Shown here: in pieces, positions 510 through 45,576 of the stretch
How positions within the stretch are numbered: position 1 is the first letter of the stretch
Layout of the letters: each line of letters begins with the position of its first letter
Position numbers and translations under genes: made by a program
NCBI RefSeq assembly: GCF_006861665.1
Contig: NZ_RKLU01000002.1
Coordinates: forward strand, 449,458-502,464
Direction of reading: 5' to 3'
Origin: Halonotius terrestris
Lineage (GTDB): Archaea; Halobacteriota; Halobacteria; Halobacteriales; Haloferacaceae
DNA: 53,007 bases
Notes under the pieces: generated by a model
Databases searched by the model: none
Told to the model about the DNA's origin: nothing
The model's input: the letters and a program-made list of their open reading frames with translations, nothing else

Positions 510-519
510 TTTAAAAATA
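510..519 (+). promoter_or_regulatory. TATA box of the integrase gene
   Basis: TTTAAAAATA is centred about 26 bases before ATG 541. This predicts a leaderless transcript starting at or next to that ATG and argues against the upstream in-frame GTG at 481. Confidence 0.55.
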
Positions 520-540
520 TCAGGGCTAATACATTATCAT

Positions 541-13482: not shown

Positions 13483-16178
13483 AGATTACCAACGTAGAAC
13501 TATCCAACATCAAGAGTTACGACGATACTATCAACGAGATTGATTTCCGTCCCGGAGTAAACGCGATTATCGGGCAGAATGGCTCAGGTAAATCTACTAT
13601 TCAGGAAGCAGTTGGATTTGCCTTGTTCGATTACCTGGATACAAAAGTTAGTCAAGGCGACTTTGTCCGGAACGGCGAGAATTCGGGTAAAGTCCGGGTG
13701 ACATTTGTTTCGAATAAGAATGGGGAGGAGTATACCGTTGAGAGAGGTGCAAAGCGGTCAACCTACCGTGTTATCCGTGAATCCGATGGTAATGAGTTAG
13801 ATCTGTCTGATAAGGAGGAAACGCTGGGTTGGCTGAAGGAACACTTGGGTATCCCTGAAGAGACTGAGCTTGAGACGCTGTGGCAGTCGAGTATAGGGGT
13901 TCCTCAGACCAAGTTTACGAATGATTTTGCGAAGACTCCAAGAAAGCGTGAGAAGGTTTTCAACCCATTGCTGGAGGTTGATGTATACGATGATGTCTGG
14001 GAGGATCTTCGGGATGTGAATAATGTTATTGAAGACGAAATTAACGAGCTTGAAAAAGATATTGAGGGTTTAGAGGCTAAGGTTGAGGACTTGGATGAGA
14101 AGAAAGAGGAGTTCGAGGAGTTGGAGCAGGATATTGAGGAGAAACAGGAAGAGTTGGAAGAGCTCAAAGACGAGAAAGAGGAGTTGGATGACCGCGAGGA
14201 AGAACTGGAAGAGTTGGAGGAGGAGATATCTGATTTAGAGGACGAAATCGACAAGAAAGAGAATACTATTGAGGATAAAAAGGATAATCTGGAGGACGCT
14301 GAGGACGCGTTGGAAGAGGCTGAAGACGCTCAAGAGGCTGTTGAGGAAGTTGAGGATGAGTACGAAGAGTACGAGGAGAAGGATGATAAGTTGGATGACC
14401 TTCGTGATCAGGAGGACGAACGAGATGATATCCAGGACAAAATAAACGAGTTGGAGAAGAAGCAGACCAAGCTCCAACAGCAAGTAGAGAACCTGAAAGA
14501 TGATGTATCCGATGCTGAGGAAGCTGAGGAGAAGATGGAGGAGCTTGAGGATGATGTTGAACGGCAAGAAGAGTTAGAAGATAAGCTGGACGACATCAAA
14601 GATAAGCAAGATGAAATAGACGAGAAGGAGGACGATTTGGATGATGCGGAAGATGAGTTAGATGAGCTTGAGGATGAGATTGAGGAGTTGGAGGAAGAGA
14701 TATCTGATATTGAGGATCTTAAAGAGACTGCTGACCAGTTGGATGAATTAGAAGAGGAGGAGCAGGATCTACGGGATGAAATGTCTCGTTTGGAAGGTCG
14801 TATCGATGATCTTGTGGAGGCTATTGAGACGTTGGAGGATACTGAAGAGGCTGAGTGCCCTACCTGTGGACAAGATCTTGACAGTGAGCATCGGAGCAGT
14901 GTTCTTGATGAGAAACGGGAGGAGAAGTCCGATGCTGAAGACCGGATTTCTGAGATAGAAGATGAGTTGGAAGATCTTGAGGATGAAATCGAGGAAGCTG
15001 AGGAAGCCGAAAAAGAGGTTAACCGGCTGCCTGACCTCAACGATAATCTCGATGATTTGGAAGATAGCCGAGACGACAAAGAAGATGAGATCGACGATTT
15101 AGAGGAAGAGATCGAGGAGTTGGAGGAAGCAATCGATGAAAAGGAAGACCTCGAAAAAGAGTTAGAGGAGCTTGATGATCCGAAGAGCGACTATCAGGAG
15201 GCGAAAGCCACCTACAAGAACAACAAGGACGCTGAAGACAACCTCGAAAAGGTTGAAGAAGAGCTTGAGGAGGTAGAAGACGAGATCGATGAAAAAGAGG
15301 AAGAGTTGGAAGAATTCCAAGGTCTTGACGAAGAGATCGAGGAGATTGAGGAGCGGTTGGATGAGTTGGAGGATGACCACGAGACCTACCTCAGTAAGAA
15401 GGAGACTGCTGAGAAGGTTGAGGATCGCCAGGAGAAAGTTGAAGCTATCGAGAAGAAGATCGAGGAGTTGGAAGACGATGTTGACGAGTATGAGGGAACT
15501 CTCGAAGAGTTAGCAGAAGAGTTCGATGAGGAAGAATATGAAGAGGTGCAGGATCGGATTGAGGAGGTTCACGGCAAGATCAACAAGCTCGATGGTAAAA
15601 TTGAGACTAAGCAGGATAACTTGGATGATTTAGAAGATGAAATCAGTGAGATGGAGGAGCAGAAGGAGGAATTAGAGGAGAAGCAGCAGGAGCATGAAGC
15701 CTTGGAGAATGATCATGAGTTCGGTGAGTTTGTCCGGGATAGTATGCAGGAAGCCCGTCCATTGATCACTGAGATACTGGTTAAAGAGATCTCTACAGAA
15801 GCAGATCGAATCTACCGGCAGCTTCGAGGGACAACGACGGAGCAGCTGGAGTGGAGAACGGATTACGAGATCGTTATCAAGGAAAATGGTGAGGAAAAAG
15901 AGTTCCACAAATTGAGTGGCGGGGAGCAGATGAGTGCTGCTCTGGCTGTGAGATTGGCTATTCTCAAGCTGTTGAGTGACGTGGATATTGTGTTCCTGGA
16001 TGAGCCTACAGCCAATCTTGATGAAGAGAAGAGAGTGAACTTGGTTGACCAGTTGCAGGAACTGGAAGGGTTTGAACAGCTTACTGTTATCAGCCACGAT
16101 GACACCTTTGAATCCGTGACAGAGCACGCTATAACGCTTGAAAAAGTGGACGGTGCGACTGAGGTGGTGAGTGACTAA
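13479..16178 (+). CDS. rad50: Rad50/SbcC-family SMC-like ATPase
   Basis: An 899-residue protein of classical Rad50 form: N-terminal Walker A IIGQNGSGKST, a very long Glu/Asp/Lys-rich coiled coil, zinc hook CPTCG at 460-464 near the midpoint, second coil, then signature KLSGGEQMSAALAVRLA and Walker B IVFLDEPTANLD with a downstream His switch (VISHDD). Length is normal. It bridges DNA ends and controls Mre11. The extreme GAG/GAT codon content creates long open frames on the opposite strand, which are artefacts. Overlaps mre11 by four bases and nurA by one (TAATG). Confidence 0.95.
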   Translation: MKITNVELSNIKSYDDTINEIDFRPGVNAIIGQNGSGKSTIQEAVGFALFDYLDTKVSQGDFVRNGENSGKVRVTFVSNKNGEEYTVERGAKRSTYRVIRESDGNELDLSDKEETLGWLKEHLGIPEETELETLWQSSIGVPQTKFTNDFAKTPRKREKVFNPLLEVDVYDDVWEDLRDVNNVIEDEINELEKDIEGLEAKVEDLDEKKEEFEELEQDIEEKQEELEELKDEKEELDDREEELEELEEEISDLEDEIDKKENTIEDKKDNLEDAEDALEEAEDAQEAVEEVEDEYEEYEEKDDKLDDLRDQEDERDDIQDKINELEKKQTKLQQQVENLKDDVSDAEEAEEKMEELEDDVERQEELEDKLDDIKDKQDEIDEKEDDLDDAEDELDELEDEIEELEEEISDIEDLKETADQLDELEEEEQDLRDEMSRLEGRIDDLVEAIETLEDTEEAECPTCGQDLDSEHRSSVLDEKREEKSDAEDRISEIEDELEDLEDEIEEAEEAEKEVNRLPDLNDNLDDLEDSRDDKEDEIDDLEEEIEELEEAIDEKEDLEKELEELDDPKSDYQEAKATYKNNKDAEDNLEKVEEELEEVEDEIDEKEEELEEFQGLDEEIEEIEERLDELEDDHETYLSKKETAEKVEDRQEKVEAIEKKIEELEDDVDEYEGTLEELAEEFDEEEYEEVQDRIEEVHGKINKLDGKIETKQDNLDDLEDEISEMEEQKEELEEKQQEHEALENDHEFGEFVRDSMQEARPLITEILVKEISTEADRIYRQLRGTTTEQLEWRTDYEIVIKENGEEKEFHKLSGGEQMSAALAVRLAILKLLSDVDIVFLDEPTANLDEEKRVNLVDQLQELEGFEQLTVISHDDTFESVTEHAITLEKVDGATEVVSD

Positions 16179-17395
16179 TGCCGCTTTATCGTGACCGTGT
16201 TGCTGAAGAATTGGAAGGTAAAAAGGCTGAGTTCACTGGTAAGGCGATTAATCAGAAGGCAGTTGAGGAGTTTCAAAGTGCTGCGCAGGGCCTTACGTCT
16301 GAGTTTTCGTCGGAGGATATTCGAGAAGCTCTTCAGGAGTATGATTTGCCGAGTGCTTTGCCAACTGAGGAGTACAGTGAAAATGGTGACTTGGTGGTTT
16401 CATTTGGGGAGAGTTCTGAGTGGGAGTCGCACGAGGCGGTGAATAATTGGGCGAAAGAGAATATTCGCGGTGTTACTACTGTTGCAGCTGATGGGTCTCA
16501 GATTGATCCTGTTACTGAGTTTGAGCAGCCTGTCGGTCTTGTTCAGGCTGTTTGGATAGGTAATAATCATACTGAGGACGGTGATTATGTGAGGGATGTG
16601 GAAACAAGGGTTCTCTCACCCGAGGATATTCTCTTTGAGGATCCGAATACAGGTCATATCCAGGTGGATAACGAGGAGGTGCCACTGTCAAGGTTTGAGA
16701 CTGAGATGGAGGTATTGGAAAAGCAGATTAAGAAACACAGTGATGAGAGCGAGCCACCGGTTGTTCTCTATGATGGACCTCTTATCATGTCGTTTGCTCA
16801 GATGTTTGATCAACCTGTCAGGGAGCGTTACGGTGAGGCTCTTGCCCGTGTTCTGGCAGCCAGTAAGCATCACGGAGTCCCTGTTGTGGGGTATACAGCC
16901 GGTTCTAAAGCCAGTGATTTTGCGAAGATGATTCAGAAATTGGATTTGATCGATGCAAGTAGTTCTGTACGTGACTATCAGATTTTTGAGGAGATGACTG
17001 AAAACTGGGGTGACAGAACTATTCTATTTAATTCGAGGAGGGATAACTCGTTGAACCAGCTTCAGACGACTTACCACGGTGTTGATTATGATTTCTCGGA
17101 GCGGATTCTGTTCTCTTATATGAAGATTGGAAGCGGTCCGCAGTTAGACCGGCTTGATCTTCCTAAGTGGGTTTTAGAGGAGGACTTGGTTAGTCATGTG
17201 ATGTCCGTGATTCGTTCCGAATGTGGTGTTGGGCGTGGTTACCCTGAGATTTTGCAGGCGGCAGATGCGGATGCGGTTATCAGTCGTCAGGATCGTGAGG
17301 AGTTCCTGAGAATGTATCAGGACTTCTCAGATGAAAACGATATTGAGTTGAGATGGAATAACAAGGCTTTGTCAAAGAAGCGGAGGAGAAGATAA
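16178..17395 (+). CDS. nurA: NurA-domain 5'-3' nuclease
   Basis: A 405-residue protein with NurA features. The first catalytic Asp lies in TTVAADGSQIDPV (D105). A central PPVVLYDGPLIM strand bears a second Asp. A C-terminal segment (LPKWVLEEDLVSHVMSVI) holds the conserved aromatic/acid region, and the tail is basic. NurA is an RNase H-fold 5'-3' exonuclease that works with the HerA hexamer and Mre11-Rad50 to make 3' single-stranded ends. It is embedded between rad50 and herA with 1-base and 4-base spacing, the canonical archaeal gene order. NurA is not a routine haloarchaeal chromosomal gene as far as I know, which suggests it came with the element. Confidence 0.88.
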   Translation: MPLYRDRVAEELEGKKAEFTGKAINQKAVEEFQSAAQGLTSEFSSEDIREALQEYDLPSALPTEEYSENGDLVVSFGESSEWESHEAVNNWAKENIRGVTTVAADGSQIDPVTEFEQPVGLVQAVWIGNNHTEDGDYVRDVETRVLSPEDILFEDPNTGHIQVDNEEVPLSRFETEMEVLEKQIKKHSDESEPPVVLYDGPLIMSFAQMFDQPVRERYGEALARVLAASKHHGVPVVGYTAGSKASDFAKMIQKLDLIDASSSVRDYQIFEEMTENWGDRTILFNSRRDNSLNQLQTTYHGVDYDFSERILFSYMKIGSGPQLDRLDLPKWVLEEDLVSHVMSVIRSECGVGRGYPEILQAADADAVISRQDREEFLRMYQDFSDENDIELRWNNKALSKKRRRR

Positions 17396-17399
17396 TACT

Positions 17400-18023
17400 A
17401 TGACACTGAAAAATAACATCGAGATCGGTTCAGTTGTAGGATCAAACTCTCACATAGACTATGTCGGAGAAATATATACGGAGACGATGCGGGAGAACCC
17501 GCCGGAACCTACCGACTTTGAGTTCGGGCAGTTCGTGTATGTTTCGAAGGAGGTGCAGGGACAGCAACGGGCGTTTGTCGGTATCATCTACGACACGCAA
17601 CTTGTGGATCCGGATCAGGGTAGGAGTGGACCGCGGCTTGCTCAACCGGATGAGCAGAATATCTTCCAACCAAGTTATGTGGATGAAAAGCAGGTTCTCA
17701 CCGGTATAGTGCTTTTAGGTCATGCCAAGGTGGAAGATGGAGAGCTGGTGGATCCTGAACATTCGATTCCTCGTTGGACGCTTGAGATTGATGATGTTGT
17801 GCAGAAACTCTCTGATGAAGCTGTAACCCGGTTCCACGAGGTTGATGGAGAAGTACGGCTGGAATACTACCAGCGTATTGTTGATGTTGCTGGAGGGTTT
17901 GCTGAGGATATTCTTAGCCAGGTCTTGACTCATCTTAAGCAGGAGAAGCCGGGAGAAGCGGATGCGTTGGATGTGATCCAAAAGAATCTGGAGTGGCAGA
18001 CTAAGATGGGGGGTGTTGAGTAA
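17400..18023 (+). CDS. HAS-barrel-like partner of HerA/NurA (207 aa)
   Basis: A 207-residue protein whose first 100 residues are beta-rich and resemble the HAS-barrel found at the N-terminus of HerA (IEIGSVVGSNSHIDYVGEIY, FEFGQFVYVSKEVQ, RAFVGIIYDTQLVD). The second half is helical (YYQRIVDVAGGFAEDILSQV). There is no Walker motif. It sits four bases after nurA and abuts herA (TAA then ATG), so it should belong to the same complex. A role as an adapter between nuclease and translocase is inference; no experimentally known family was recognised. Confidence 0.75.
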   Translation: MTLKNNIEIGSVVGSNSHIDYVGEIYTETMRENPPEPTDFEFGQFVYVSKEVQGQQRAFVGIIYDTQLVDPDQGRSGPRLAQPDEQNIFQPSYVDEKQVLTGIVLLGHAKVEDGELVDPEHSIPRWTLEIDDVVQKLSDEAVTRFHEVDGEVRLEYYQRIVDVAGGFAEDILSQVLTHLKQEKPGEADALDVIQKNLEWQTKMGGVE

Positions 18024-19652
18024 ATGGTAATTGGAATTGTCTCTAAGCCAGGGGAAAATACGAATGAGTTTGTAATCGTTACTCCTGACGATACAGAGAT
18101 TAAGACTGGTGAGTTCGTCTACTACAAGGGTGATGTAGAGGTTCAAAATGATGATGGCAGTGTTGTGGAACAGGAGAAGAAGATTTTCGCCCGTGTTACG
18201 GGGCGTGAGCAGCAGCGAGGGTTCCCTGATCAGTTCATGGCTGATCCCGGTGTGTCCCCGGATGCTGTAGCTCGAAAACTTGGTATCTCTACTGAGGGAG
18301 TCGATCTCTACAATATTACTGCGACGGTTATCGGTTACTACGATGAGAAGCTGAATGATTTCACGAATCCGCGTATTGTACCGAAGCCGGGAACTGAGAT
18401 TAGGTTAGCGTCTGATTCGGATTTAGAGGAGTATCTTACTGAGGCTGTCCCTGAGGAGGGTTCGGCGTTTATCGGTGATTTGATTCATCGTCCTCCGGAG
18501 CAGACTGAGATCCACTTACCGATTGATGCCTTTGCTTCGACTCATCTCTCTGTGCTGGCGTCAACGGGCAGCGGCAAGTCGTACACTGCATCGGTACTGA
18601 TTGAGGAGATGATGCAGCCTGATTCACGGGCAGCAGTACTGGTATTGGATCCACACGGAGAATATGGATCTCTGAAGCAGATGGAGGAAGGCGAAAAGTT
18701 CCAAGATGGTGATTATGCTCCTGAGGTGCAGATTAAGCGACCGGAAAGTATCCAGATCCGGATCAGTGAGCTTTCCTTAGGCGATTTGTTCTCAATCATC
18801 GACGATCCTTCGGATCCACAGGAACAGGTTCTTGCGGAGGCTTGGAACCAGCTTCAGTCTGAGGAAGACGACTATATTTCTATCAATGATCTTCAGAATA
18901 AGGTTGAGGAGGTTGGTGATGAGAAGGATCTTGAGAGCAGTGCTCGTGCGTTAGATTGGCGGATAGACAAGGCTCTTGACCGAGACTTGTTTGATCACAG
19001 CAACCACCTGTCACTTTCGGAGCTGTTGGAGCCTGGTCAGTGTACGGTACTTCAGTTGGATACAATGGATCAGCGCGATCAGCAGATGATGGTCAGTGTG
19101 TTATTCCGTAAAATCAATCAGGAACGTGTAGCACACGAGAAAGGACGAGAATCTGAACTGGAGTTCCCTGTTTTCGGACTCTTAGAGGAAGGGCACCGTT
19201 TTGCACCGGCTGACGGTGATGCCCGGTCACTGCCAGTTCTCAGCACTATTCTGAGTGAGGGTCGTAAGTTCGGAGTCGGTATCGGAATAATCAGTCAGCG
19301 TCCAAGCAAGATCGACGACGATGTGCTGTCACAGTGTAAAACTCAAATCATCATGCAGATTCAGAACCCGTTGGATCAAGACGCTGTAAAGAAAGGTGTC
19401 GAGGATGTCGGCGAGGATCTACTTGATGAACTACCCGGACTAACACCCGGACAGGCAATCATCGCTGGTGACAGCGTCAACACACCATTCCTCTCCCGAA
19501 TCAGAAACCGCTACACAGAGCACGATGCCGAAAGCTTAGAAGCCACAAAACTCTGGCAGGAAAGCTGGAAAGAGCAACAACGGGAGCCTGACGGAATGGC
19601 TGAGCCAGAAGACGAAGAAGGTGCTTCGAACCGAGATCAGCCGTTAGATTAG
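18024..19652 (+). CDS. herA: HerA DNA translocase
   Basis: A 542-residue HerA/FtsK-type ATPase. The N-terminal HAS-barrel (1-110; FVIVTPDDTEIKTGEFVYYK) is followed by Walker A LASTGSGKSYTA (about 178-189), the DPHGEYGSL element, a Walker B region FGLLEEGHRFAP, and sensor/arginine segments (IGIISQRPSKIDDDVLSQC). It forms hexameric rings that pump DNA and stimulate NurA. It closes the mre11 operon and overlaps the end of a convergent minus-strand gene by nine bases. HerA paired with a nuclease is also a recurring phage-defence architecture. Confidence 0.92.
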   Translation: MVIGIVSKPGENTNEFVIVTPDDTEIKTGEFVYYKGDVEVQNDDGSVVEQEKKIFARVTGREQQRGFPDQFMADPGVSPDAVARKLGISTEGVDLYNITATVIGYYDEKLNDFTNPRIVPKPGTEIRLASDSDLEEYLTEAVPEEGSAFIGDLIHRPPEQTEIHLPIDAFASTHLSVLASTGSGKSYTASVLIEEMMQPDSRAAVLVLDPHGEYGSLKQMEEGEKFQDGDYAPEVQIKRPESIQIRISELSLGDLFSIIDDPSDPQEQVLAEAWNQLQSEEDDYISINDLQNKVEEVGDEKDLESSARALDWRIDKALDRDLFDHSNHLSLSELLEPGQCTVLQLDTMDQRDQQMMVSVLFRKINQERVAHEKGRESELEFPVFGLLEEGHRFAPADGDARSLPVLSTILSEGRKFGVGIGIISQRPSKIDDDVLSQCKTQIIMQIQNPLDQDAVKKGVEDVGEDLLDELPGLTPGQAIIAGDSVNTPFLSRIRNRYTEHDAESLEATKLWQESWKEQQREPDGMAEPEDEEGASNRDQPLD

Positions 19653-20051
19653 CTCCTGCACCTGATCGCGGAACACCTCGAATTTTTTCTCCAACTCTTC
19701 TATTTGCTTCTCTAACCCGTGGATTTTCTCGACAAGTTCGTTGTGGCTCAGATCATCGTATTCGTCTATATGTTCTCGCTCCGATTCCTTCAGGTGCTCC
19801 TCTCCTTTTTCGGTTAGTTCTGCTTGTTTGGGGTGTTGGAAGACTCGTTTTTGTCCGTTGATGGTTCGTTCTACGGTTCCTTCGGGTTTTGTGACTTCGA
19901 TGAGTCCTAGATCTTCGAGTTTTTGGAATGCGTAGGTGACGTGGTGGTTTTCGTGGGTGGTGGCTGAGGTGATTTTTTGTACGTCGTTGTTGCCTTGGTG
20001 GATTTGTTGGAGGATTTGGTGGTCTTTGTCTCTGAGTTCTGGAGTGGTCAT
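19644..20051 (-). CDS. Winged-helix regulator with coiled-coil tail
   Basis: A 135-residue protein, last gene of the type IV secretion-like operon. Residues 1-65 form a MarR/ArsR-type winged helix (DHQILQQIHQGNNDVQKI, THENHHVTYAFQKLEDLGLIEV) with a wing carrying RTINGQKRVF. The C-terminal 45 residues form a coiled coil (LVEKIHGLEKQIEELEKKF). Start ATG 20051 overlaps the upstream stop (ATGA); an in-frame extension upstream is proline/arginine-rich and unlikely. It probably regulates transfer genes. Its end overlaps herA by nine bases tail to tail. Confidence 0.8.
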   Translation of the reverse strand: MTTPELRDKDHQILQQIHQGNNDVQKITSATTHENHHVTYAFQKLEDLGLIEVTKPEGTVERTINGQKRVFQHPKQAELTEKGEEHLKESEREHIDEYDDLSHNELVEKIHGLEKQIEELEKKFEVFRDQVQELI

Positions 20052-21955
20052 TGGTTTTCTTGGAGGACGCACTGTGTTTCGAGTTCGGTACAGAATCCGT
20101 CGTTGTCGCGGTAGAGGCAGAAGTTTTCGAGGTCTTCCCGGTCGTTGTGACTGAGTTCGGGGCACTCGTTTTCGACTTGGTCTCGTGTTTCGAGGGTGTC
20201 TTCGGTGAGTTCGAGGATTCGGTATTCCCCTGTTTTGAGTTGTTCTGTGTTGGTTACGGGTTCGCCGTCGGTGGTGTAGTGGCTGTAGGTGCCGTGTTCG
20301 TCTTGGTGTTGGTTGCCGTGGCGGTTGACGGGGTCGGAGAGAATGTTTTCGAGTTTGGCGGCGTTTCCGTTTTCGACGATGTAGAAGACTTCTCGGTCTT
20401 GTTCTATTCCTCTTTTCAGGTTTTTCAGGACTTTGCCTGGTTTGGATAGTGTGCTGTGTTCGGCTTCAAGATGTGCCAATTCATCATCGGGTAGGTGTAC
20501 GTGTCCGTCGGGTTTCTCTTCGCTTTGTCCTTGGTGTAGGAGGTTGACTTGGAAGCCGCGTTCTTCCAATTGTTTCTTGGCTTCTGCGAGGAGTTCTTGA
20601 TGTTTTTCGCCGCCGGCGTTGGCTTGTTTGCCGAGTGATTGCTGTATCTCGATGTTTTGTCCGGGTTGGGAGGCGGTGTGTTGTTTCTTGATCTGGTCTA
20701 CTTTGTCTCTGTCTGTGTTCCAGGGTGGGTAGGTGTCGAAGGTGACGGCTTGTGACTGGTTTTCTTGTGATGGTTTTTGGATTGCTGCCCGGTATTTTCC
20801 GAGTGCTGTCAGGGTGTCTTTGTTGAGTCCTTGAAGCATTGCGGCGATCCGGGCTGTGTTGTCGCTGCCGCTGGGGTTGAATATGATTTTGGTGCGGCAG
20901 TTGTTGGTGACTGCTCTCCGCATTTCGGCGGTGAGTTGGTGGAGGTATTGTGTGGCGAGCCAGCAGCCGAGCCGGTATTCTCGTGCTTCGCTGAGTATTT
21001 TGGTGAAGTTGCTGCCTTCTCCTGCGAAGTTTTGGAGTTCGTCGATGTAGAGGTAGAACGGTGTTCGCTGCTGGATGGGTTGTGTGATCCGGCTTTGTGC
21101 TGCTGCCCAGATCTTGGTGATTACGATGGAGCCGATGAGTTGTGAGACTGTTTCGCCGACCTCTCCTTTCTGAATATCGACGAGTATGATCTTCTCGTTG
21201 TTAACGGCTTCTTGGAAGTCGAACCCGGATTCCTCGGCTCCGATAACCCGTCTGATAGTTGGGTTCATGACGAAGTCGTTTAGTCGGCGTTGGAGAGGTT
21301 CCATTTCGTAGCTGGACATATCCTCCTTGACGCGGACGAGTTGTTCTCGGATAACCGGGTCTTCGGTGGCGTCAATCAGCTTGGAGAGTTCCTCGCTTTG
21401 GGTGACACAGTGAAATACGTCGATTAGTGTTTTGCCGGCGTCGTGGCGGATGTTTTGGTTGAGGTGGGCTCGAAGCAGTGTTTCGAGTACTCTGCCGAAC
21501 TGATCTCCCCAGTTCTCGCTTTGTCTTTTGAATAGGTCGATGAGATCGGAGACGATGATCTCTTTCTGGCTTTCCCTTTGTGCCGTGGTCATATCCTCGG
21601 TGAGCTGTGGTTCTAAGACGTTGACTGGTGTTACGGGTTGCTGGGCAGGATTAATGTAGATGATGTCGTCCAACCGGTGTTCGGGGAGTTTGGCGATGAA
21701 TTCGTCTATGAGGTCGCCTTTCGGGTTGATGATGCCGAGTCCGTATCCCTTCTCCGCATCCTGCAAGGCGACATGCGTCAGTAACTGACTTTTGCCGTAG
21801 CCGGTTGGTCCGATGTTGAGAACGTGTGTCAATCGTTTCGTATCTTCGATGCCGATGTTTTCTTCGACGCCGAAGCTGCTGGTACGGGTTCCGAGGTAGG
21901 TCAGTGCCTGGTCTCCGCTATTCTGTATCAGTTTCTTTACTTCTTCTGGTGTCAT
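20048..21955 (-). CDS. VirD4/TraD-like coupling ATPase
   Basis: A 635-residue P-loop ATPase of the type IV coupling protein class. It has Walker A IGPTGYGKSQLLTH (about 48-61), a NPKGDLIDEF element, Walker B FYLYIDELQNFAG and the downstream LATQYLHQLTAEMRRAV sensor region. The C-terminal 150 residues are acidic and polar. There is no clear N-terminal membrane anchor, unlike classical VirD4. It should bring DNA to the transfer channel. Translationally coupled (ATGA) to genes on both sides, directly in the operon with VirB4-, VirB6- and VirB2-like genes. Confidence 0.85.
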   Translation of the reverse strand: MTPEEVKKLIQNSGDQALTYLGTRTSSFGVEENIGIEDTKRLTHVLNIGPTGYGKSQLLTHVALQDAEKGYGLGIINPKGDLIDEFIAKLPEHRLDDIIYINPAQQPVTPVNVLEPQLTEDMTTAQRESQKEIIVSDLIDLFKRQSENWGDQFGRVLETLLRAHLNQNIRHDAGKTLIDVFHCVTQSEELSKLIDATEDPVIREQLVRVKEDMSSYEMEPLQRRLNDFVMNPTIRRVIGAEESGFDFQEAVNNEKIILVDIQKGEVGETVSQLIGSIVITKIWAAAQSRITQPIQQRTPFYLYIDELQNFAGEGSNFTKILSEAREYRLGCWLATQYLHQLTAEMRRAVTNNCRTKIIFNPSGSDNTARIAAMLQGLNKDTLTALGKYRAAIQKPSQENQSQAVTFDTYPPWNTDRDKVDQIKKQHTASQPGQNIEIQQSLGKQANAGGEKHQELLAEAKKQLEERGFQVNLLHQGQSEEKPDGHVHLPDDELAHLEAEHSTLSKPGKVLKNLKRGIEQDREVFYIVENGNAAKLENILSDPVNRHGNQHQDEHGTYSHYTTDGEPVTNTEQLKTGEYRILELTEDTLETRDQVENECPELSHNDREDLENFCLYRDNDGFCTELETQCVLQENQ

Positions 21956-22926
21956 GGTTTGCTGTCTGGGATGTTCTGCTGGCTGCGGTCTGGGATCGAT
22001 ACGAGTGCTGCGAGCTCTTCGGTTGAGGTGTGGAAGCGTCGGTGCCAGGAACTGAATCTACGCTGCCGGACTGCGGAGGCAAAGTCGAGGATGCGGCTCT
22101 GCAATGTGTGGATGGTTACGGCGTTGAGGTACTGCCCTGTATCCGGGTTTTCGTAGATGTTGAATGCACCAGCCAGTTCCTTCACGCGGCTTGGCGTGTA
22201 CTCCTTGCTGTTGATGAACAGGAGTCGGATAGAGGTGTAGAATCGGGTGGTACCGGCTTTGCGTTCTACGGCGTCTGCCTGTTGTTTTTCACGGGGTGTT
22301 GGTGATCGACTGTTCCACAGCTTCTGTTTCTCTTTCCTGAGGTACCCGATGCGCTGGTATGTCCGCCGGTTCCTGTACCACCGCCTCACAGGTTTGCCGG
22401 CAACCGGTTTGAACAGTACTTGGATCACTGCCTGCGTGTTCTGCATGGCGTGACGGTGCAGTGCTCCAACCAAACTGTTGGTCGGTGGCTGATCGTAACC
22501 GGTCTGTAGAGGATACCAATCTCTTCTCCCCGAGGTGAGTATGCCGCCGCCGACCGAGTCACCTTCTGTCACCAGGAGCTGGTTGGTTCCCTCGGAGAGT
22601 TGGATTCCGTCGAGTTCGTTTTTGATTTGGCTTCGAACCTTTCGTTCAAGTCTCCTGCTCGGAACTGAGAACTGTATCTGTATGTTTTCGGGTGTGTGGC
22701 GTCGGATTTCGAATGAAATGGTTGGTGAGGTGTTCTTGAGTCCGAGCCAGCTGGTCTGGAGTTCGGTGATGCCTTTTATGAAGGTGTCCAGTGTTTCCGG
22801 GTGGTCGGCGTTGGGACTGGTTTTGACTTGGACGGTGTGCCAGCCACCAACCGGTTTAGACAGTTCTTCCGCCTGTGTTTCGGTCAGGGTTGTGTAGCAG
22901 GGCAGGAGGCGTTTTACCGGGTTCAT
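21952..22926 (-). CDS. Unknown T4SS-operon protein (324 aa)
   Basis: A 324-residue protein with no membrane helix and no recognised catalytic motif. The sequence is basic for a haloarchaeon, especially in the centre (RWYRNRRTYQRIGYLRKE). The N-terminal 110 residues (WHTVQVKTSPNADHP; SFEIRRHTPENIQIQFSVPS) look like a beta/alpha domain similar to the N-terminal part of VirB4-like proteins, so it could be a detached VirB4 N-domain or a DNA-binding adapter. It overlaps both neighbours by four bases, so a structural role in the transfer machine is likely. Confidence 0.75.
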   Translation of the reverse strand: MNPVKRLLPCYTTLTETQAEELSKPVGGWHTVQVKTSPNADHPETLDTFIKGITELQTSWLGLKNTSPTISFEIRRHTPENIQIQFSVPSRRLERKVRSQIKNELDGIQLSEGTNQLLVTEGDSVGGGILTSGRRDWYPLQTGYDQPPTNSLVGALHRHAMQNTQAVIQVLFKPVAGKPVRRWYRNRRTYQRIGYLRKEKQKLWNSRSPTPREKQQADAVERKAGTTRFYTSIRLLFINSKEYTPSRVKELAGAFNIYENPDTGQYLNAVTIHTLQSRILDFASAVRQRRFSSWHRRFHTSTEELAALVSIPDRSQQNIPDSKP

Positions 22927-25061
22927 GCCTGTTCGCCTCCCTGTATGACTGCGTGTTCTTGTGGCGTGGATTCGACTCTGAGCCGTGTTTTGATTCTGCC
23001 GGAGACGTGGAGTAGTGCTTCGCTGTACGGTGATTCTGTCCCGGTTCGTAGTTCGTATAGTTCCTGTTTTTCGCGTTGTGACAGGTTGAAGTAGTCTACT
23101 ACTGATTCTGGGACTCTGTCGTGCCGCATGAAGATTTTGCCGGGCATGTTGTCGAGGATTTCTCGTCCTTCCCGGCTGTGAGTGAAGTGTGAGGCGTTCT
23201 GCGTGATCAGGGTGATTGCGGTGTTGGTGTCACGTCCTTCGAGAACAAACTGGTTCAGGACCCTGCGACCGTCCTCATCGTTGAGTAAAATACGGGCTTC
23301 ATCAACGAGAACAAGTGTCCTTTCTTGGTCTTGGCTAACGCTGCTGTAGACTTGTTCGACGGCGTCGGTCAGCAGTTCGACGTTCTCGCTTTGCCCACGC
23401 TCACTTACTGATAGACAGGTGGCTTGATTATCGAGACTGTAATCTGTGGTTTCTTCGAGTGTTTCTACGTTGCCGCCGAGTGATTGGATTAGGTGTTTGT
23501 ATTCCTGTTTGGGATCGACGACGATGATTTTCAGGTCTTGGTAGATGAGTGCGGATCGCAGCAGTTCGATCTTGGCGGCGTAGCTTTTGCCGGAGCCGAC
23601 TGCTCCCATTCGTGCCATGCTGTGGCTGCTCCAGTTGAATCGGTTGAGGAGTACCGGGTTGCCGCTGTAGGTGTCTGCGCCGTAGATGATGCCGGTGTCT
23701 TCGGTGTTTTGTGTGGCGAAGGGGAAGCCTGCGGCTGCGCTGCTGGATGGGACGAGCAGTGAGTGGTTTAACGGGTTTCTGTACAGCGGTGAACTGGTTT
23801 TGTAGGCTTGATCGGTTCTGAGAACCGGTTGACTGTATTCGAATCTGAGTGTGTCTAACCGGTTGCACACCTTTTCGAAGGTTTGCCCCGCCCTCTCCTT
23901 CTTCGGGTGGTGAACGGTGAGGTATGCGCTGTATTCGACGGGATGTGCTTCTTTCTCCGCCAGCAGGTTGAGGAACTGGTTGGCGTCTTCGAGCAGTGAT
24001 TCAAGTTTGTTGGTTCCTCTGTGTCCGCCGGCGAGCAGCGAGTCGATCTCCGCATTCAGTTTTTCCGCGACCCGGTTCAGTTTCTTGACTGCTTTACTGG
24101 TGTTACACGGTTCAATCACTTGGACGGTGTCAACCATGCCACGGATTCGAAGCAGCTGTACTGGCCACGCCAAGTCAATTTTAGACGGGTATTCGTCCAG
24201 TTGAATCGTCTTCCTGTACTGACCGCCCTGTGTTGTCCACTGTGGCGACGGATTCGGCGTAGTGTGTTTCTCGGCGGATGTGAATTGGGTTAGTTGGGTG
24301 TCTGTGAGGCGTTCTGCGTTGAGGTCTGAGGTGTTGAGTGCTTCCAGTACTTCGCGGCATCGGCTATCGAGTTCGCTTCGCAGTGCTTCGTCATTCTCCG
24401 ATTTGACGCCGTCTCCGAGGTACTCGCTGTATTTTTCTTGTAGGAAGCTGAGTCCGTCTTGTTCGACGTGGACTACGATGTAGTGCTGTGTCAGGGTCAG
24501 CTCTTGATTCTCGAACTCTTCGCAGAACTCGACGTAGTCAGTTTTCAATAGTTCGCTGCTGGATTCGCAGCTTTCCAAGTGGTCGAGGTATTTGTCGAGA
24601 TCTAACCGTTTTTGCCGTGAGTGGATTTGAACTGGGTAGTTCACCGTCTCGATGAACTCTTGGTACAGGTTGTGGACTGCTCCCTGCTCGGCACCGGTCT
24701 TCAAGTCGAGATTGGTGGGCTCTATCCTGATGACTGTGCCCAGTCCGCCTTCCCCGGTTCTGAACGCGTTTTCTTCGACCTCACCCGTCAATGAATCCGA
24801 GCTGTCTGCTTTCTTCTCCAACTGCCTCTTTCCGATCAGCCAGCGTGCGGTGTGGAAGACGTGACCGTCTAACGGGCGTCCGTATGGTTTCCAGAAGAAC
24901 CATACAAGGCTGATCAGTACTCCGGCGGCGATCCCGACCAGGTTTTGGGTGAGGACGCCTGGAACCAGTGGTAGGGAGATTCGAGCCAGGTCTTTGGCTT
25001 TGATTCTGCCGAACAGCCGCATCGGGACTTCGAGGTCTCCTGGCATCCAGACCGGCTTCAT
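22923..25061 (-). CDS. VirB4-like conjugation ATPase with N-terminal membrane segment
   Basis: A 712-residue VirB4/TraC-type ATPase. The N-terminus (1-70) has hydrophobic stretches (LVPGVLTQNLVGIAAG, VLISLVWFFW) reminiscent of a VirB3/PrgI-like fusion. The ATPase core contains MGAVGSGKSYAAK (Walker A), IIVVDPKQEY, LVLVDEARILL (Walker B) and the LITQNASHF motif. VirB4 powers assembly of the mating channel and is the hallmark gene of conjugative systems. Overlaps the upstream gene by one base (TGATG) and the downstream by four. Confidence 0.88.
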   Translation of the reverse strand: MKPVWMPGDLEVPMRLFGRIKAKDLARISLPLVPGVLTQNLVGIAAGVLISLVWFFWKPYGRPLDGHVFHTARWLIGKRQLEKKADSSDSLTGEVEENAFRTGEGGLGTVIRIEPTNLDLKTGAEQGAVHNLYQEFIETVNYPVQIHSRQKRLDLDKYLDHLESCESSSELLKTDYVEFCEEFENQELTLTQHYIVVHVEQDGLSFLQEKYSEYLGDGVKSENDEALRSELDSRCREVLEALNTSDLNAERLTDTQLTQFTSAEKHTTPNPSPQWTTQGGQYRKTIQLDEYPSKIDLAWPVQLLRIRGMVDTVQVIEPCNTSKAVKKLNRVAEKLNAEIDSLLAGGHRGTNKLESLLEDANQFLNLLAEKEAHPVEYSAYLTVHHPKKERAGQTFEKVCNRLDTLRFEYSQPVLRTDQAYKTSSPLYRNPLNHSLLVPSSSAAAGFPFATQNTEDTGIIYGADTYSGNPVLLNRFNWSSHSMARMGAVGSGKSYAAKIELLRSALIYQDLKIIVVDPKQEYKHLIQSLGGNVETLEETTDYSLDNQATCLSVSERGQSENVELLTDAVEQVYSSVSQDQERTLVLVDEARILLNDEDGRRVLNQFVLEGRDTNTAITLITQNASHFTHSREGREILDNMPGKIFMRHDRVPESVVDYFNLSQREKQELYELRTGTESPYSEALLHVSGRIKTRLRVESTPQEHAVIQGGEQA

Positions 25062-26128
25062 CAGTCGTCACCTCCGACAACCGAGTCTCTGTAGTCTGGT
25101 TTGTTTCCGTGCTGTTTGAGGCGTTCCTGCCGGTAGCGATGCCAGTCTCTCTGCCGTTTCTCGCGGCGTTTCGCGCGTTTCCGTTTTTTCCAACGTGTTT
25201 TGACGCTGCCTGTGACTGCGTATGCTTGTCCGACGACGGCTTGGCTGGCTCCGTAGAGTTGGTAGGGTACGAGGATCAGGAGTACTGCGGAAGCCATTCC
25301 GAATATCCAGTTTGCGATGGATTGTCCGAGGTTGGCTCCTTGTCCTGACATCAGTGTGAATGTGAATTTGAGGACGATCATGTCGAGCGGTGCCATCATC
25401 AACGCGGTGAACCAGCCGGCGATGAACGAGTCGGCGTAGCGTTTGACTTTCGGCAGGCTCCATCCCAAAGCGAGTAACGGGCTGATGGCGGCGATGAACA
25501 TCAGGTAGGCTGATCGGACTACGAATATCAGGACAACAACCAGCAACAGCCATGAATTGATGACCCAGACGATGGCGATGGTTGCGGCAGTCCCGTACAT
25601 CTCACCTATCGAAGTCTCCAGTATATCCGGTCTGAACGCGTAGGTCAGTGCGTTAGCCAAGTCAATCTGATACTGGAGCAGCGGCAAAGCTACTGAGGCG
25701 AATACCAGTGCCGCGATCACACGCGGAAGAATTATCCTGACCTCCCGGTAGCTCACACCGAGGACAGGACCGATCATATGCAGTAAGCCGGCAGCCATGA
25801 ACGCCAAGGTCGCCAACAGGTATGAGATCAAAAGTGATTGCTGGTAGACCTCTTCGACGGCAGGGTTCGGGTATACATCCGGCGTATGCAGTAGTAGGGT
25901 GGCGAGGATCGAGACCAGCATGTTCAACAACGCGAGGAAAGGATCGAACAACACTGATCTTACAACGCTTTCCAGTGTTTCATCCCAGCTGTCGGTGAAG
26001 CTGCTGAGTTCGTCAAACAGGTTATCAATCGAATCAGCTATCCCACCGTTGTCTGTGTCTGTTTGAGCCGTTGCTGGGGTCGAACAGAGGAGAACCACCG
26101 CTGCCAAGATGAAGAGGTGTTTCTTCAT
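25061..26128 (-). CDS. VirB6/TrbL-like polytopic membrane protein
   Basis: A 355-residue protein with a signal peptide (MKKHLFILAAVVLLCSTPATAQ) and about seven hydrophobic segments between residues 65 and 300 (e.g. LLISYLLATLAFMAAGLLHM, VIAALVFASVALPLL, IAIVWVINSWLLLVVVLIF). The C-terminus is strongly basic (RWKKRKRAKRREKRQRDW). This matches the inner-membrane channel component VirB6/TrbL. It starts on the stop of the pilin-like gene (TGATG), indicating tight coupling. Confidence 0.82.
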   Translation of the reverse strand: MKKHLFILAAVVLLCSTPATAQTDTDNGGIADSIDNLFDELSSFTDSWDETLESVVRSVLFDPFLALLNMLVSILATLLLHTPDVYPNPAVEEVYQQSLLISYLLATLAFMAAGLLHMIGPVLGVSYREVRIILPRVIAALVFASVALPLLQYQIDLANALTYAFRPDILETSIGEMYGTAATIAIVWVINSWLLLVVVLIFVVRSAYLMFIAAISPLLALGWSLPKVKRYADSFIAGWFTALMMAPLDMIVLKFTFTLMSGQGANLGQSIANWIFGMASAVLLILVPYQLYGASQAVVGQAYAVTGSVKTRWKKRKRAKRREKRQRDWHRYRQERLKQHGNKPDYRDSVVGGDD

Positions 26129-26484
26129 CAGCAGATTGCACCTCCCATCTGAGAGACAAGGTAGGAGACAATCATATTGGCAGACAACAGCAGGACTACA
26201 CCGATGAACACGTTCTTGGCTACACCTTTCCCACGTCGAGTCCAGTCTTCTCCCGGCAGCATCAGAAAGATACCAGCCGTCAGGAACCCGATAGTGCCGA
26301 TACTGACACCTGCGAGGAAGGCAAGTTCACCGAGGCTGTGAAGCAAATTGATTAACGGTGAAAGCGAGTCGGGTGGTGTGCAATCCAAGCTGCTGTGTGC
26401 TGCTGCTACAGGCTGGACGATGAGCAGAACCGATGCGAGTGCCGGTGAGAGCGTTGCCACTCTCCGAACTATTTTACTGGACAT
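26128..26484 (-). CDS. VirB2/TrbC-like pilin-type protein
   Basis: A 118-residue protein with a leader/hydrophobic N-terminus (about 11-28, ending VAAAHS) and two closely spaced hydrophobic helices (LAFLAGVSIGTIGFLTAGIF; VFIGVVLLLSANMIVSYLV) separated by a basic loop PGEDWTRRGK. This is the layout of VirB2-type cyclic or membrane pilins. It is the first gene of the operon, with a good RBS, GGAGGT, ten bases before ATG 26484. The paired Cys residues (C36 and the C-terminal Cys) could form a disulfide. Confidence 0.78.
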   Translation of the reverse strand: MSSKIVRRVATLSPALASVLLIVQPVAAAHSSLDCTPPDSLSPLINLLHSLGELAFLAGVSIGTIGFLTAGIFLMLPGEDWTRRGKGVAKNVFIGVVLLLSANMIVSYLVSQMGGAIC

Positions 26485-26590: not shown

Positions 26591-26737
26591 ACTAATTTAT
26601 GGCTCTGGAACGGGTTCGATTTTTAGAAACAGTTGAATGACAGAAGAAGGGGTTGGTAGAGAGATAGGGTTAATCCGGAAAAGTCAGTTCATTGGATTTG
26701 CATAATGGTTATTTGATGACATGGTTTGTTTTGGGGT

Positions 26738-27193
26738 ATGGATGTTGATTATGAGTTGATTAGGACTCGGGAAGTTAGGTCGCAGAAGAAGATTAATTTT
26801 CCTGACAAGGTTCAGCGTAATGTTTCCTTTGAGCACAGAGCACATGGAGAGTCTGTTGAATGGCATTATGAGGAGAATGAGGGTGTGGCTGTCATTTCAA
26901 ATGATAGGTTGAGCGACGAGAGATATGTTCATATCAAGCGAGCGAACGTGATGGATGATGGTGTTAATATACGCCCTCCAAATGACCTTATCGAAGATCT
27001 TAGCAGACCTATCTACAAAGGTATGACTACTGTTTATTTGGCGCATGAGGATATGCTGGAAGGTGATATCAGGTCGGTTTATCTTTTGACCGAGAGTCAG
27101 GCATTTACTCTAATTGGTGAAAGAACGGATGACTCAAAGGAGCTGAGGGAAGTACTGTCAAACACACCAAGGTTCCTACCTATCCCGGAATGA
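26738..27193 (+). CDS. Hypothetical protein coupled to M48 protease (151 aa)
   Basis: A 151-residue soluble protein (starts MDVDYELIRTREVRS), beta-rich and without recognised motifs. The ATG 26738 start is preferred over TTG 26726. The stop overlaps the ATG of the membrane protease gene (27190), so the pair is translated together; it may be a substrate, inhibitor or chaperone of the protease. It is divergent from the T4SS-like operon. Confidence 0.7.
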   Translation: MDVDYELIRTREVRSQKKINFPDKVQRNVSFEHRAHGESVEWHYEENEGVAVISNDRLSDERYVHIKRANVMDDGVNIRPPNDLIEDLSRPIYKGMTTVYLAHEDMLEGDIRSVYLLTESQAFTLIGERTDDSKELREVLSNTPRFLPIPE

Positions 27194-29148
27194 GAATCAG
27201 CAGACAAGTATGGAGTCCTGAAAACACGTTTAATGAGGCTGCTGAATCTAAACTAACTGGTTCTTTCGGAGAGCCTGATGAAGAAGGAGATCTGCTGAAA
27301 TGGTCTCAAAAAAAATTGCTTGGTCTACACCGTCAGGAAATCGTTTTCAATACTGGTGAGTGTGAAGTTACGGTAAGTACTGAGGCAAACCGGTTTCTGT
27401 ATTTCCTTGTTGTAGGTCTTCCATTGGTGTTTTCAGCTTTATTGTTGTCCTCGAACTTTGGCTTGGGCGGTATTCGAGTAATATTTTTGTTCTTGATTTA
27501 TGCAGGTGTCTCGTATTGGCTGTTTACTCCTGGTCGTATTGAGTGTTTAGAGGAGCTTGCTATTTTGTCAGAACAAGAAGATAATTCATTGCCTTTCCTA
27601 TTGATAGGCAGTGGACTTCTCTTGATGTGGTATAAGTTTCAAATTTTATATCCAACCGGTTTAGTTAGCAGGTTTATGATACTTATATTTATTATTTTCT
27701 TGGGCTATTCCCTCAGCTATAATTTGATTCCGTTTGTTTCGGTGAATCCTGGTTTGAGAATCTTAGCGACACCTGTCACAGCCCTGTTTTGGTTGATGAT
27801 CCCACCAATTCTCTTCGTTGTCTTTGCATTCCAACCAGGTTATTTATATCTCAAATCTAATTTCCATCAGTCTATTTTCCAGAATATGACTTTGACGAGG
27901 TATAATGCGAGTATAATTACAGATATGTATGGTAGTATTCCTTCGATAGAGGCTATTGATCTCTTGGTGGCTCAGAGGTCTTTAGAATTTTTCATGATTA
28001 TGATTTTGTTGATTATATTAGTATTAGTTTTGATGGCTGTTCAGGCTAAAAGACAACTTTCCAGTTTTAATTCGATTAATGTCACTAGTTTTGAATCTTC
28101 AAAGCTGAGATCGGCTGCTTTTGCCGTATTTTTCACTTCAAACATTGCAGTCTTGGTGACGGTGATACCGGCTGCTGCTATCCTATTTTACGGTGTTTTT
28201 GAACAGTTTCCTTTCAGTGGAATTGACCTGTTATACACTCAGGCGTTCACATATCAACCGCTTGAGTTTCAGATAGAGACTGCACGCTTTGTGAACAATA
28301 CGTCTGTTACTGAACCGGTGATGATTGAAGAGTCGAGACAGATTCAGCCGGAGGAATTAGTAGCTGCGAGTTATGAGGTTCTTGATACGGCATTTAGGAA
28401 CTCTGAGTTCCTTCCTCCGCGTGTTCTGTCTATCTCGTTCTTCGGTTTTTTGTTTGCACCGCAGATATTGCTTGGGAACTACTGGATGTACAGTTTATAC
28501 TCAGGTATTCGAGAAAAGTTTGGGCTACTGTTGAAGGCTGAGCAACTGGAAAGAGATTCAGACGTTGTTCCAGAGGATATTCAAGTACTGGTTATTGAAG
28601 AAGAACAGTCATCCGTTCTTGTCAACCCAATGTCTCTCCTATTTGGCTGGAGAAATTATATACTCATCAACAGGTCTGTAGAAAAAGAGCTTACATCCGA
28701 TGAGCTGGATGCTGTATTAGCTCATGAAGTATACCATATCAACCATCAGGATTTGAAAGTCAACGCAGCGGCAAAGATCATATCTTTAGGATTTGGCGGC
28801 TCTAATGCTTTACTCGCCTTCTATGATTATCCGAAGATCGAGGAAGAAGCAGATGATTACGCACGAAATAAAATAGGGGCAACTGCCACTATCGTAGCAA
28901 TCGATAAGATGGATATCCTCGCCCAACGATCTTCCGGTAAAACGATACCAGGCTTGTCGCCCGGCTTTGTCGATACCCCAGAGTTCATACAATCCGGTTG
29001 GAATTCTCTTTCAGGAATAAGAACGACACTGGATGAATACAGCAGTTCACCGTATAAACTGTTGTTCGGAAAAGTTATTCTCCACACTGCCCACTTGGAA
29101 CCAAGAGAACGGATAGCACGAATCAGACAGAACAGTCAAGATGAATAA
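27190..29148 (+). CDS. M48-family membrane zinc metalloprotease
   Basis: A 652-residue membrane protein. It has clusters of hydrophobic helices between about 70 and 430 (e.g. FLYFLVVGLPLVFSALLL, SFLMIMILL-like region around 275). The C-terminal protease domain carries HEVYH (H512, E513, H516) and the downstream EEEADDYA glutamate, the M48/HtpX zinc site. Family proteases degrade membrane proteins or activate signals. This one is larger than HtpX because of extra membrane segments and an extracytoplasmic-looking loop (about 350-410). Low-GC, adjacent to the transfer operon; it could process surface or transfer proteins, which is inference. Confidence 0.85.
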   Translation: MRISRQVWSPENTFNEAAESKLTGSFGEPDEEGDLLKWSQKKLLGLHRQEIVFNTGECEVTVSTEANRFLYFLVVGLPLVFSALLLSSNFGLGGIRVIFLFLIYAGVSYWLFTPGRIECLEELAILSEQEDNSLPFLLIGSGLLLMWYKFQILYPTGLVSRFMILIFIIFLGYSLSYNLIPFVSVNPGLRILATPVTALFWLMIPPILFVVFAFQPGYLYLKSNFHQSIFQNMTLTRYNASIITDMYGSIPSIEAIDLLVAQRSLEFFMIMILLIILVLVLMAVQAKRQLSSFNSINVTSFESSKLRSAAFAVFFTSNIAVLVTVIPAAAILFYGVFEQFPFSGIDLLYTQAFTYQPLEFQIETARFVNNTSVTEPVMIEESRQIQPEELVAASYEVLDTAFRNSEFLPPRVLSISFFGFLFAPQILLGNYWMYSLYSGIREKFGLLLKAEQLERDSDVVPEDIQVLVIEEEQSSVLVNPMSLLFGWRNYILINRSVEKELTSDELDAVLAHEVYHINHQDLKVNAAAKIISLGFGGSNALLAFYDYPKIEEEADDYARNKIGATATIVAIDKMDILAQRSSGKTIPGLSPGFVDTPEFIQSGWNSLSGIRTTLDEYSSSPYKLLFGKVILHTAHLEPRERIARIRQNSQDE

Positions 29149-29830: not shown

Positions 29831-30904
29831 TTGGAAAGATATCATCGGAAACCGGGTGTATCGGTTGATACCTACCGGTTAGTATCTGTGTTCTTGGTAA
29901 GAGGTGGTTCACGAATTAGATCTGATGTGTATGTTTTCGATGGTTTGGACGAGCTTTACGAAACTGCGGAAGAGTTGCCGGTGGTTGATCGGCATGATGT
30001 CTATGCTCATCATGAAGGGAGTGATGAGTGGGAGGAGGTGCCGTACCGTGACAGTTTGTGGACTGATGATGGTAGGACGACGGGTGTGGTTTCCAGCAGT
30101 GAGGATTTCTACAATATTATTCAATACGGGGATGTGTTGGAGACGGTTGGTGATGCCATTGATCGCCACGGTATCGAACCTTCTGGCAGAGTGTCCGTCT
30201 CTCCGACCGCGCATAAGATGAGTGCGTCTGTCGAGTTCGATGGAGCCACGGTTTATGCTTCGCAGGATGATCCTGTTGATCTTGGACTCCAGATTCAGAC
30301 TGGGCACAGCGGGTTCCACGGGTTGAAGTACGATATTGGTGCGGAACGGCAAGTATGCAGTAACGGGATGACGGCTTTCATCTCCGAGCTCGGATTCGAG
30401 CAGACCCACGGTGAACCATTTCAGCCCGGCTTGGCGTACAACGCTGTTGACGCTGTGGTTGAGTCGCCGGCGGAGATCGAGCAGCGACTAGCACAGGCAC
30501 AGAACCGAGAACTATTCAACCAGGATGAAGCCCTGCTGGTGTTGATGGAGTCAGGGATTGACCGGTATTTGGAGAATCCTGTTCCGGATTTGTTGACGGC
30601 GATGCAGGACGAGGTCAGTGATCCGAATTCTCCGACGCTTTGGGAGACGTACAACGCTGCCACACGCGCACTGACACACTACACCCATGACGTGCCGGAT
30701 TACGAGGTTGCGGAGGGATTGGAGAAGGCTGCTCAGCTCTTGGAGGATGGTACGAACAGTATTCCTGATCCTGAACGGCTTGGTGAACAGGTTGTCAACA
30801 ATCGTTCCCGCCAACTGATCGAACACGGTGACTCGGAGCCGTACTGGCCTGAAGAAGAGCAAACCCTGAGAGAATTGATGCAAGAACACGAACTCACAGC
30901 ATAA
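29831..30904 (+). CDS. DUF932-like plasmid/phage protein
   Basis: A 357-residue protein resembling the DUF932 family of plasmids and phages, with the region LGLQIQTGHSGFHGLKYDIG followed by RQVCSNGM, matching the family's SNG-type core. The function of DUF932 is not established; such genes are frequent in mobile elements. The C-terminal 130 residues are helical. The start is uncertain: TTG 29831 gives the longest frame, but TATA spacing would also allow GTG 29888. It lies upstream of two eroded small genes, likely one former operon. Confidence 0.7.
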   Translation: MERYHRKPGVSVDTYRLVSVFLVRGGSRIRSDVYVFDGLDELYETAEELPVVDRHDVYAHHEGSDEWEEVPYRDSLWTDDGRTTGVVSSSEDFYNIIQYGDVLETVGDAIDRHGIEPSGRVSVSPTAHKMSASVEFDGATVYASQDDPVDLGLQIQTGHSGFHGLKYDIGAERQVCSNGMTAFISELGFEQTHGEPFQPGLAYNAVDAVVESPAEIEQRLAQAQNRELFNQDEALLVLMESGIDRYLENPVPDLLTAMQDEVSDPNSPTLWETYNAATRALTHYTHDVPDYEVAEGLEKAAQLLEDGTNSIPDPERLGEQVVNNRSRQLIEHGDSEPYWPEEEQTLRELMQEHELTA

Positions 30905-32147: not shown

Positions 32148-32200
32148 GGTAACTGATGGCTGCCGGAACTATTAACAGTGTAACCCCAGCAGTAGTTTGT

Positions 32201-35082: not shown

Positions 35083-35088
35083 TTTGAT

Positions 35089-42416: not shown

Positions 42417-42627
42417 ATTAGACACCAAATTTCAATTGAAAACCCAAACGAAGGAAGGAGACTGGCAAAGCACGATAAGTAATAGATGTTCACCGCTAAT
42501 ATCGAGGCGGGTCCTGCCATTGTATAATCCATTCAGTGGCTGCCCATTCGAACGGCGGTGTTCAATGGTCAACTGAAGTCGTGTGTACCCTGGTTCTCCT
42601 TCTAATTGCAACCGTGATTACTACATT

Positions 42628-45548: not shown

Positions 45549-45576
45549 ACTGTGTTCGACTGAGGAAGTAGGTGTT

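Follow-up and report, generated by a model that had tools for sequence, protein, structure and literature searches.

A likely integrative and putatively conjugative element with a minimal type IV secretion operon in Halonotius terrestris

The element at tRNA-His and its secretion operon

We analysed a stretch of 53,007 nucleotides (hereafter the window) of Halonotius terrestris (assembly GCF_006861665.1, contig NZ_RKLU01000002.1, positions 449,458 to 502,464; contig C19 in our set, where this 2.84 Mb genome is G000). It contains a 46.4-kb element inserted in a tRNA-His gene, which encodes a small type IV secretion system (T4SS) operon. The features that bound the element are as follows (coordinates are those of the window).

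327..400, plus strand: tRNA-His(GTG), the integration target (ARAGORN)
355..403, plus strand: attL, a 49-bp perfect direct repeat (3' half of tRNA-His)
481..1650, plus strand: tyrosine integrase int1, adjoining attL (PF00589, 2e-17)
46748..46796, plus strand: attR, the second copy of the 49-bp repeat, bounding the 46.4-kb element
46888..46936, plus strand: partial third att-like copy beyond attR, in which 25 bp of the tRNA 3' end are exact

The partial third copy is perhaps the scar of an earlier insertion. Three congeneric genomes (G057, G058, G059) have an empty site, where the left flank runs up to tRNA-His and the right flank is joined to it directly. The G+C content is 47% inside the element and 63% outside. 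Relatives of the integrase adjoin tRNA-Thr elsewhere.

The operon consists of six minus-strand genes (26484..19644) that overlap by one or four bases throughout. The sequence TGATG joins the pilin gene to VirB6 and VirB6 to VirB4, while ATGA joins VirB4 to the gene of a 324-residue protein, the latter to VirD4, and VirD4 to the gene of a helix-turn-helix (HTH) protein.

26128..26484, minus strand: VirB2/TrbC-like pilin, with a signal-like segment and two transmembrane segments flanking a basic loop (PF18895, PF04956)
25061..26128, minus strand: VirB6-like polytopic membrane protein (eight hydrophobic segments, position, conservation)
22923..25061, minus strand: VirB4 ATPase, with its own N-terminal region and Walker A and B motifs
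21952..22926, minus strand: VirB4-like 324-residue protein, probably the split N-terminal domain of the coupling protein (AlphaFold and Foldseek; fusions on plasmids)
20048..21955, minus strand: VirD4/TrwB/TraG-like coupling ATPase without a transmembrane helix (Pfam families, topology)
20276..20662, minus strand: VirD4 C-terminal domain with invariant H, PD, E-x-E, T, P and N, putatively PD-(D/E)XK-like (weak family matches)
19644..20051, minus strand: winged-HTH regulator (DUF2250/MarR-like, Pfam), the last gene of the operon, which most likely starts at 20051 and not at the GTG at 20165

The pilin matches T4SS_pilin (PF18895) over the cut-off, at 8e-8, and TrbC/VirB2 (PF04956) at 1.8e-5. 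VirB4 matches AAA_10 in Pfam (8e-15) and the conjugative VirB4 families of NCBIfam (down to 2e-36), with Mbov_0397 and CD1110 at the top. VirD4 matches TraG-D_C (9e-9) and TrwB (1.6e-7). Both ATPases keep intact Walker motifs. The VirB6-like protein, one of whose eight hydrophobic segments is signal-like, matches no Pfam family and shows a weak hhalign match (probability 63%) to the TrbL/VirB6 protein at the equivalent place on plasmid pHTS138. The operon would hence encode the VirB4 ATPase, the VirB2 pilin and, judging from topology, position and this weak profile match, the VirB6 channel protein of a T4SS.

The same machine occurs in about 20 other haloarchaea. VirB4 relatives with 34-53% identity were found in 14 of the 170 other species of the family (Haloferacaceae), and VirD4 relatives with 54-75% identity in named Haloferacaceae, Haloarculaceae and Natrialbaceae. 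The order of the six genes is complete in 12 of 15 loci (two have no recognisable pilin and one is decayed), and five more loci from named organisms (L095, L096, L097, L102, L104) also have it in full. Since the gene order persists even where VirB4 identity falls to about 34%, the operon is not a chance arrangement. Six of the relatives have att boundaries, at tRNA-Thr or tRNA-Gly, and measure 32.5-56.1 kb; across the elements the G+C content is 47-52%, against 61-71% in the flanks. All seven bounded elements have a common backbone in the same order: int1, the operon, and then the genes below.

29831..30904, plus strand: DUF932 protein (7/7 bounded elements)
31325..31756, plus strand: protein of unknown function (7/7)
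38141..40123, plus strand: HerA/FtsK-type ATPase with a winged HTH and a C-terminus like a restriction endonuclease (REase) (7/7)
42583..43857, plus strand: second tyrosine recombinase, int2, with a zinc ribbon (7/7)
44091..44525, plus strand: coiled-coil-like protein of unknown function (7/7)
44520..45626, minus strand: Orc1/Cdc6-like replication initiator
45615..46529, plus strand: Orc1/Cdc6-like replication initiator

Horizontal spread across families is well supported, because groupings in the VirD4 tree cut across taxonomy. Natrinema altunense (Natrialbaceae) pairs with G090, from the window's own family (support 100/99), and the closest partner of Halonotius pteroides is Halobellus clavatus, not the Halonotius of the window. 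A search of IMG/VR gave no close relatives, and a literature search for this exact family of haloarchaeal elements found no description in the papers covered. We also observed a haloarchaeal VirD4 beside an integrase on a contig (L100, PWFW01000150.1) of a metagenome-assembled genome named Halanaerobiaceae bacterium, which is probably mis-binned.

We consider it likely that the 46.4-kb stretch is an integrative, putatively conjugative element of Halonotius with a minimal, single-membrane T4SS. It has several traits of an integrative and conjugative element (ICE): an integrase and att repeats at a tRNA gene, an empty site and a patchy distribution, and VirB4 with a coupling protein. An earlier note on this DNA, made from the letters alone, had described the six genes, their junctions and their likenesses correctly, coordinates included. 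It had also proposed an archaeal element of the integrative conjugative type, and the integrases, perfect att repeats, empty sites, conserved backbone and horizontal spread bear this out. Two outcomes that would have spoken against the proposal did not occur: both ATPases belong to the VirB4/VirD4 families of conjugation systems and not to those of type IV pili or DNA repair, and the operon, being patchy and att-bounded, is not chromosomally fixed in relatives.

The coupling protein and its neighbour

The VirD4 ATPase of Halonotius has no membrane helix, and the gene of the 324-residue protein adjoins it upstream. We modelled the latter with AlphaFold, from an alignment of 12 sequences (mean predicted local distance difference test score, pLDDT, 70.5). 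When the model was compared with the PDB by Foldseek, the best 13 matches were all TrwK/VirB4 chains of the R388 secretion system (E-values 7e-7 to 7e-5). Counterpart operons are present on haloarchaeal plasmids, e.g. pHTS138 and pHGLR3. There, the counterpart of the 324-residue protein is either fused to the N-terminus of VirD4 (pHGLR3 and pHAR01) or encoded by a separate gene directly before it (pHTS138 and a Haladaptatus plasmid). Alignment with hhalign to these plasmid counterparts gave E-values of 7e-11 to 4e-9, against 0.2-0.7 for unrelated-protein controls. Because of the VirB4-like fold matches and the VirD4-adjacent or fused counterparts, we read the protein as probably a split-off N-terminal domain of the coupling protein. 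This would account for the one gene of the operon to which the earlier note could give no function. There is a parallel in the division of the VirB4 N-terminal domain function between CedB and CedD (PMC11868833).

The C-terminus of VirD4 has its own signature. The residues H, PD, E-x-E, T, P and N are invariant in 17 sequences with identity down to 28%. The PD...E-x-E pattern, which includes D483, E497 and E499 of the Halonotius VirD4, looks like the site of a PD-(D/E)XK nuclease in which Glu replaces Lys. A Glu at this position is known from BamHI. Searches with the domain gave very weak matches: a PDB entry termed 'Nuclease' (4qbn) at E 0.75 and, for one member, an AHJR-like REase at E 0.028. 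All 34 plasmid records with this domain are typed as non-mobilizable, and those listed are haloarchaeal. The pattern raises the idea that in haloarchaeal conjugation a nuclease domain of the PD-(D/E)XK type, built into the coupling protein, stands in for a separate relaxase; the motor of the T4SS would then both cut and load the DNA. We put this forward tentatively, and think it has a small chance of being right.

DNA processing and the missing relaxase

In bacteria, DNA transfer is initiated by a relaxase. The earlier note had seen no such enzyme in the element, and profile and motif searches agree. Pfam scans of the element's proteins returned none, PF03432, PF08751, PF01076 and PF02486 (relaxase/Rep) gave nothing inside the elements of 11 genomes, and 13 backbone families have no conserved HUH motif. 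By these searches the element lacks the relaxase of a bacterial-type conjugative element; no search was aimed specifically at an origin of transfer (oriT). When shared noncoding blocks were considered as candidates for oriT or clt, two of the three best-conserved stretches proved to be small conserved open reading frames (ORFs), and the third (42405-42461) is short and promoter-like. No clt-like 8-mer was enriched across the elements. This is in line with what is published: a relaxase has yet to be recognised in any of the archaeal conjugative plasmids on record (PMC9905601, PMC12857230), and other archaeal conjugative elements are relaxase-free as well (PMC9905601, PMC6563490, PMC12857230). 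Since relaxase-free archaeal elements were already known, the additions made here are the probable split coupling protein and the nuclease candidate within VirD4.

Other factors might prepare the DNA. The element carries a gene cassette next to the operon.

12109..19652, plus strand: Mre11-Rad50-NurA-(207-residue protein of unknown function)-HerA cassette, cargo (3/7 bounded elements)

The 207-residue protein (17400-18023) lies between NurA and HerA in all three cassettes, with 76-90% identity. HerA and NurA, whether those of the cassette or those of the host, could resect the circle and yield a single strand for export, as PMC9905601 proposes for Ced/Ted. The cassette is convergent with the operon, and the end of HerA (19652) overlaps that of the HTH gene (19644). 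However, the earlier note's suggestion of HerA/NurA-type factors is not supported for the element's own copies as a replacement of the relaxase, and as a fixed part of the system these are rejected, because four of the seven bounded elements lack the cassette. The cassette seems to move independently, like cargo, since between the window and G085 its identity (80-92%) is far above that of VirB4 (51%) and VirD4 (75%). The host proteins are another matter, as 77 of 79 genomes in the family encode NurA, G000 having a second copy outside the element, but nothing ties the host copy to transfer. We regard resection by HerA and NurA as conceivable but doubtful.

Another candidate is the ATPase encoded at 38141, which could choose and process DNA like the FtsK-like TraB of Streptomyces, which acts on double-stranded DNA. 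It is in all seven bounded elements and in further loci, it has a CedD-like family match (2e-9), and its model shows a winged HTH and an REase-like fold with matches to a Holliday resolvase (4tkd), a tRNA endonuclease (3ajv) and XisH (2inb). Yet it lies outside the operon, and these fold matches are weak (PDB E-values 0.01-0.05; viral models likewise gave only weak REase-like matches). Its third catalytic position is Ala (E-V-A), it also matches the defence ATPase mad8 (1e-22), and no repeated clt-like 8-mer turned up in the elements. We find this role unlikely. A common origin of the C-terminal domains of this ATPase and of VirD4 is not supported (hhalign probability 3%).

The T4SS may also be real but serve DNA uptake, protein export or adhesion, or the element may now be immobile. 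Ced/Ted and most T4SSs of Patescibacteria have no relaxases and do other jobs (PMC9905601, PMC12102498), and there are broken copies (G099, and the VirB4 of G026). But most copies are intact, the operon includes a coupling ATPase, and it travels across families with an integrase, replication genes and att sites, all of which makes another use or immobility an unlikely explanation too. Finally, a relaxase supplied in trans by another replicon, or one of divergent or unfamiliar fold, is improbable: one Relaxase-family match exists elsewhere in G070 (contig C2), but the other ten genomes have no match over the cut-off, no backbone family has a conserved HUH motif, and the 34 plasmids that share the coupling domain are all typed as non-mobilizable. 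The match in G070 (PF03432, over the cut-off, at C2:7823-8047) is away from the T4SS element of that genome.

Judging from the gene families and the anatomy of the element, transfer could proceed as follows. The integrase would excise the element as a circle, whose replication would be started by the Orc1/Cdc6 proteins. The VirB2-like pilin and the VirB6-like protein would make the pilus and channel, powered by VirB4, and a two-piece coupling complex of the VirB4-like 324-residue protein and VirD4 would feed the DNA in. The HTH protein would regulate the operon. As a conjecture, we favour preparation of the DNA by the coupling complex, the PD...E-x-E domain of VirD4 cutting or holding it.

Several points weigh against this picture. 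For the model of the 324-residue protein (mean pLDDT 70.5), the query TM-scores reach only about 0.44, and the profile of this protein gave no sequence match to the N-terminal region of the element's own VirB4. VirB6 is assigned only from topology, position and a weak profile match. The nuclease reading consists of a residue pattern and very weak matches, with no significant family match. The genome's own assembly holds just two att sites and the partial copy, and an assembly would not reveal a circle.

The family nevertheless makes the question of archaeal DNA transfer testable, by offering a small syntenic machine, an encoded pilin, exact att sites and strains with an empty site, and haloarchaea offer laboratory genetics in Haloferax volcanii. 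The analysis also singles out residues on which the idea can be tested (PD...E-x-E of VirD4), and it gives a probable assignment for the formerly unknown gene.

Other genes and comparison with known systems

The remaining genes of the element include the following.

26726..27193, plus strand: divergent neighbour of the operon, of unknown function (also in nine other loci)
27190..29148, plus strand: polytopic membrane metallopeptidase of M48/M56 type (family match, topology)
32156..38079, plus strand: type I restriction-modification system, HsdM, HsdS and HsdR (family matches)

The pair at 26726-29148, divergent from the operon, may act in sensing and regulation or in pilin processing. Defence-like cargo occupies 3868-12046: an AbiEii-like protein, a large N6-methylase, a CARF protein, a TGT-like protein, and a CD-NTase with a two-transmembrane (SLATT) effector, a pair that is also on G021. 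A small conserved protein (ITDYDDEEP...) is encoded at 30985-31319, and its conserved N-terminus lies upstream of any in-frame ATG, GTG or TTG. Its relatives start with ATG (G090), GTG (G018) or apparently ATT/ATC, and overlap a small upstream ORF ending in TYN[HY]*. Another conserved ORF, unannotated and of about 51 residues (MSRVSPNELLEAEDLL...), lies at 43947-44101 and is found in five of the six bounded relatives.

The T4SS operons of haloarchaeal plasmids (Haloterrigena salifodinae pHTS138, Haloferax gibbonsii pHGLR3) resemble that of Halonotius in layout, with the order pilin ... VirB6, VirB4, VirB4-like N-terminal domain, VirD4. They also have the C-terminal motif of VirD4, and the plasmids are typed as non-mobilizable. 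However, their VirD4 is only about 30% identical and much longer, in some with the N-terminal domain fused, and they sit on plasmids whereas the Halonotius family is integrated at tRNA genes. Sulfolobus plasmids, thaumarchaeal ICEs and Thermococcus pT33-3 likewise have VirB4 and VirD4 and no relaxase (PMC6563490, PMC12857230), and the thaumarchaeal ICEs integrate at tRNA genes too. In contrast to these elements, the Halonotius family has a recognisable VirB2-like pilin and a strictly kept operon order; the thaumarchaeal conjugation genes are reported not to be syntenic.

The Ced/Ted systems share the set of VirB2-, VirB6- and VirB4-like proteins and a split of the VirB4 N-terminal domain function (CedB/CedD) (PMC9905601, PMC11868833). 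They are domesticated systems for DNA import that lie outside att-bounded elements, and the descriptions consulted do not name VirD4 among their components. The Halonotius operon, with a coupling protein and a mobile att-bounded setting, falls outside them. For VirB4, the best NCBIfam families (Mbov_0397, CD1110) point to the MPF_FATA systems of Firmicutes and Tenericutes ICEs, a likeness in best-family matches. The Halonotius element differs from these in having no relaxase, no VirB1, VirB3 or VirB8 homologue that we could see, and an archaeal replication based on Orc1/Cdc6. Of the traits of TraB-type transfer in Streptomyces, the 38141 ATPase of Halonotius has a motor and a winged HTH, and no enriched clt-like repeat was found in the elements.

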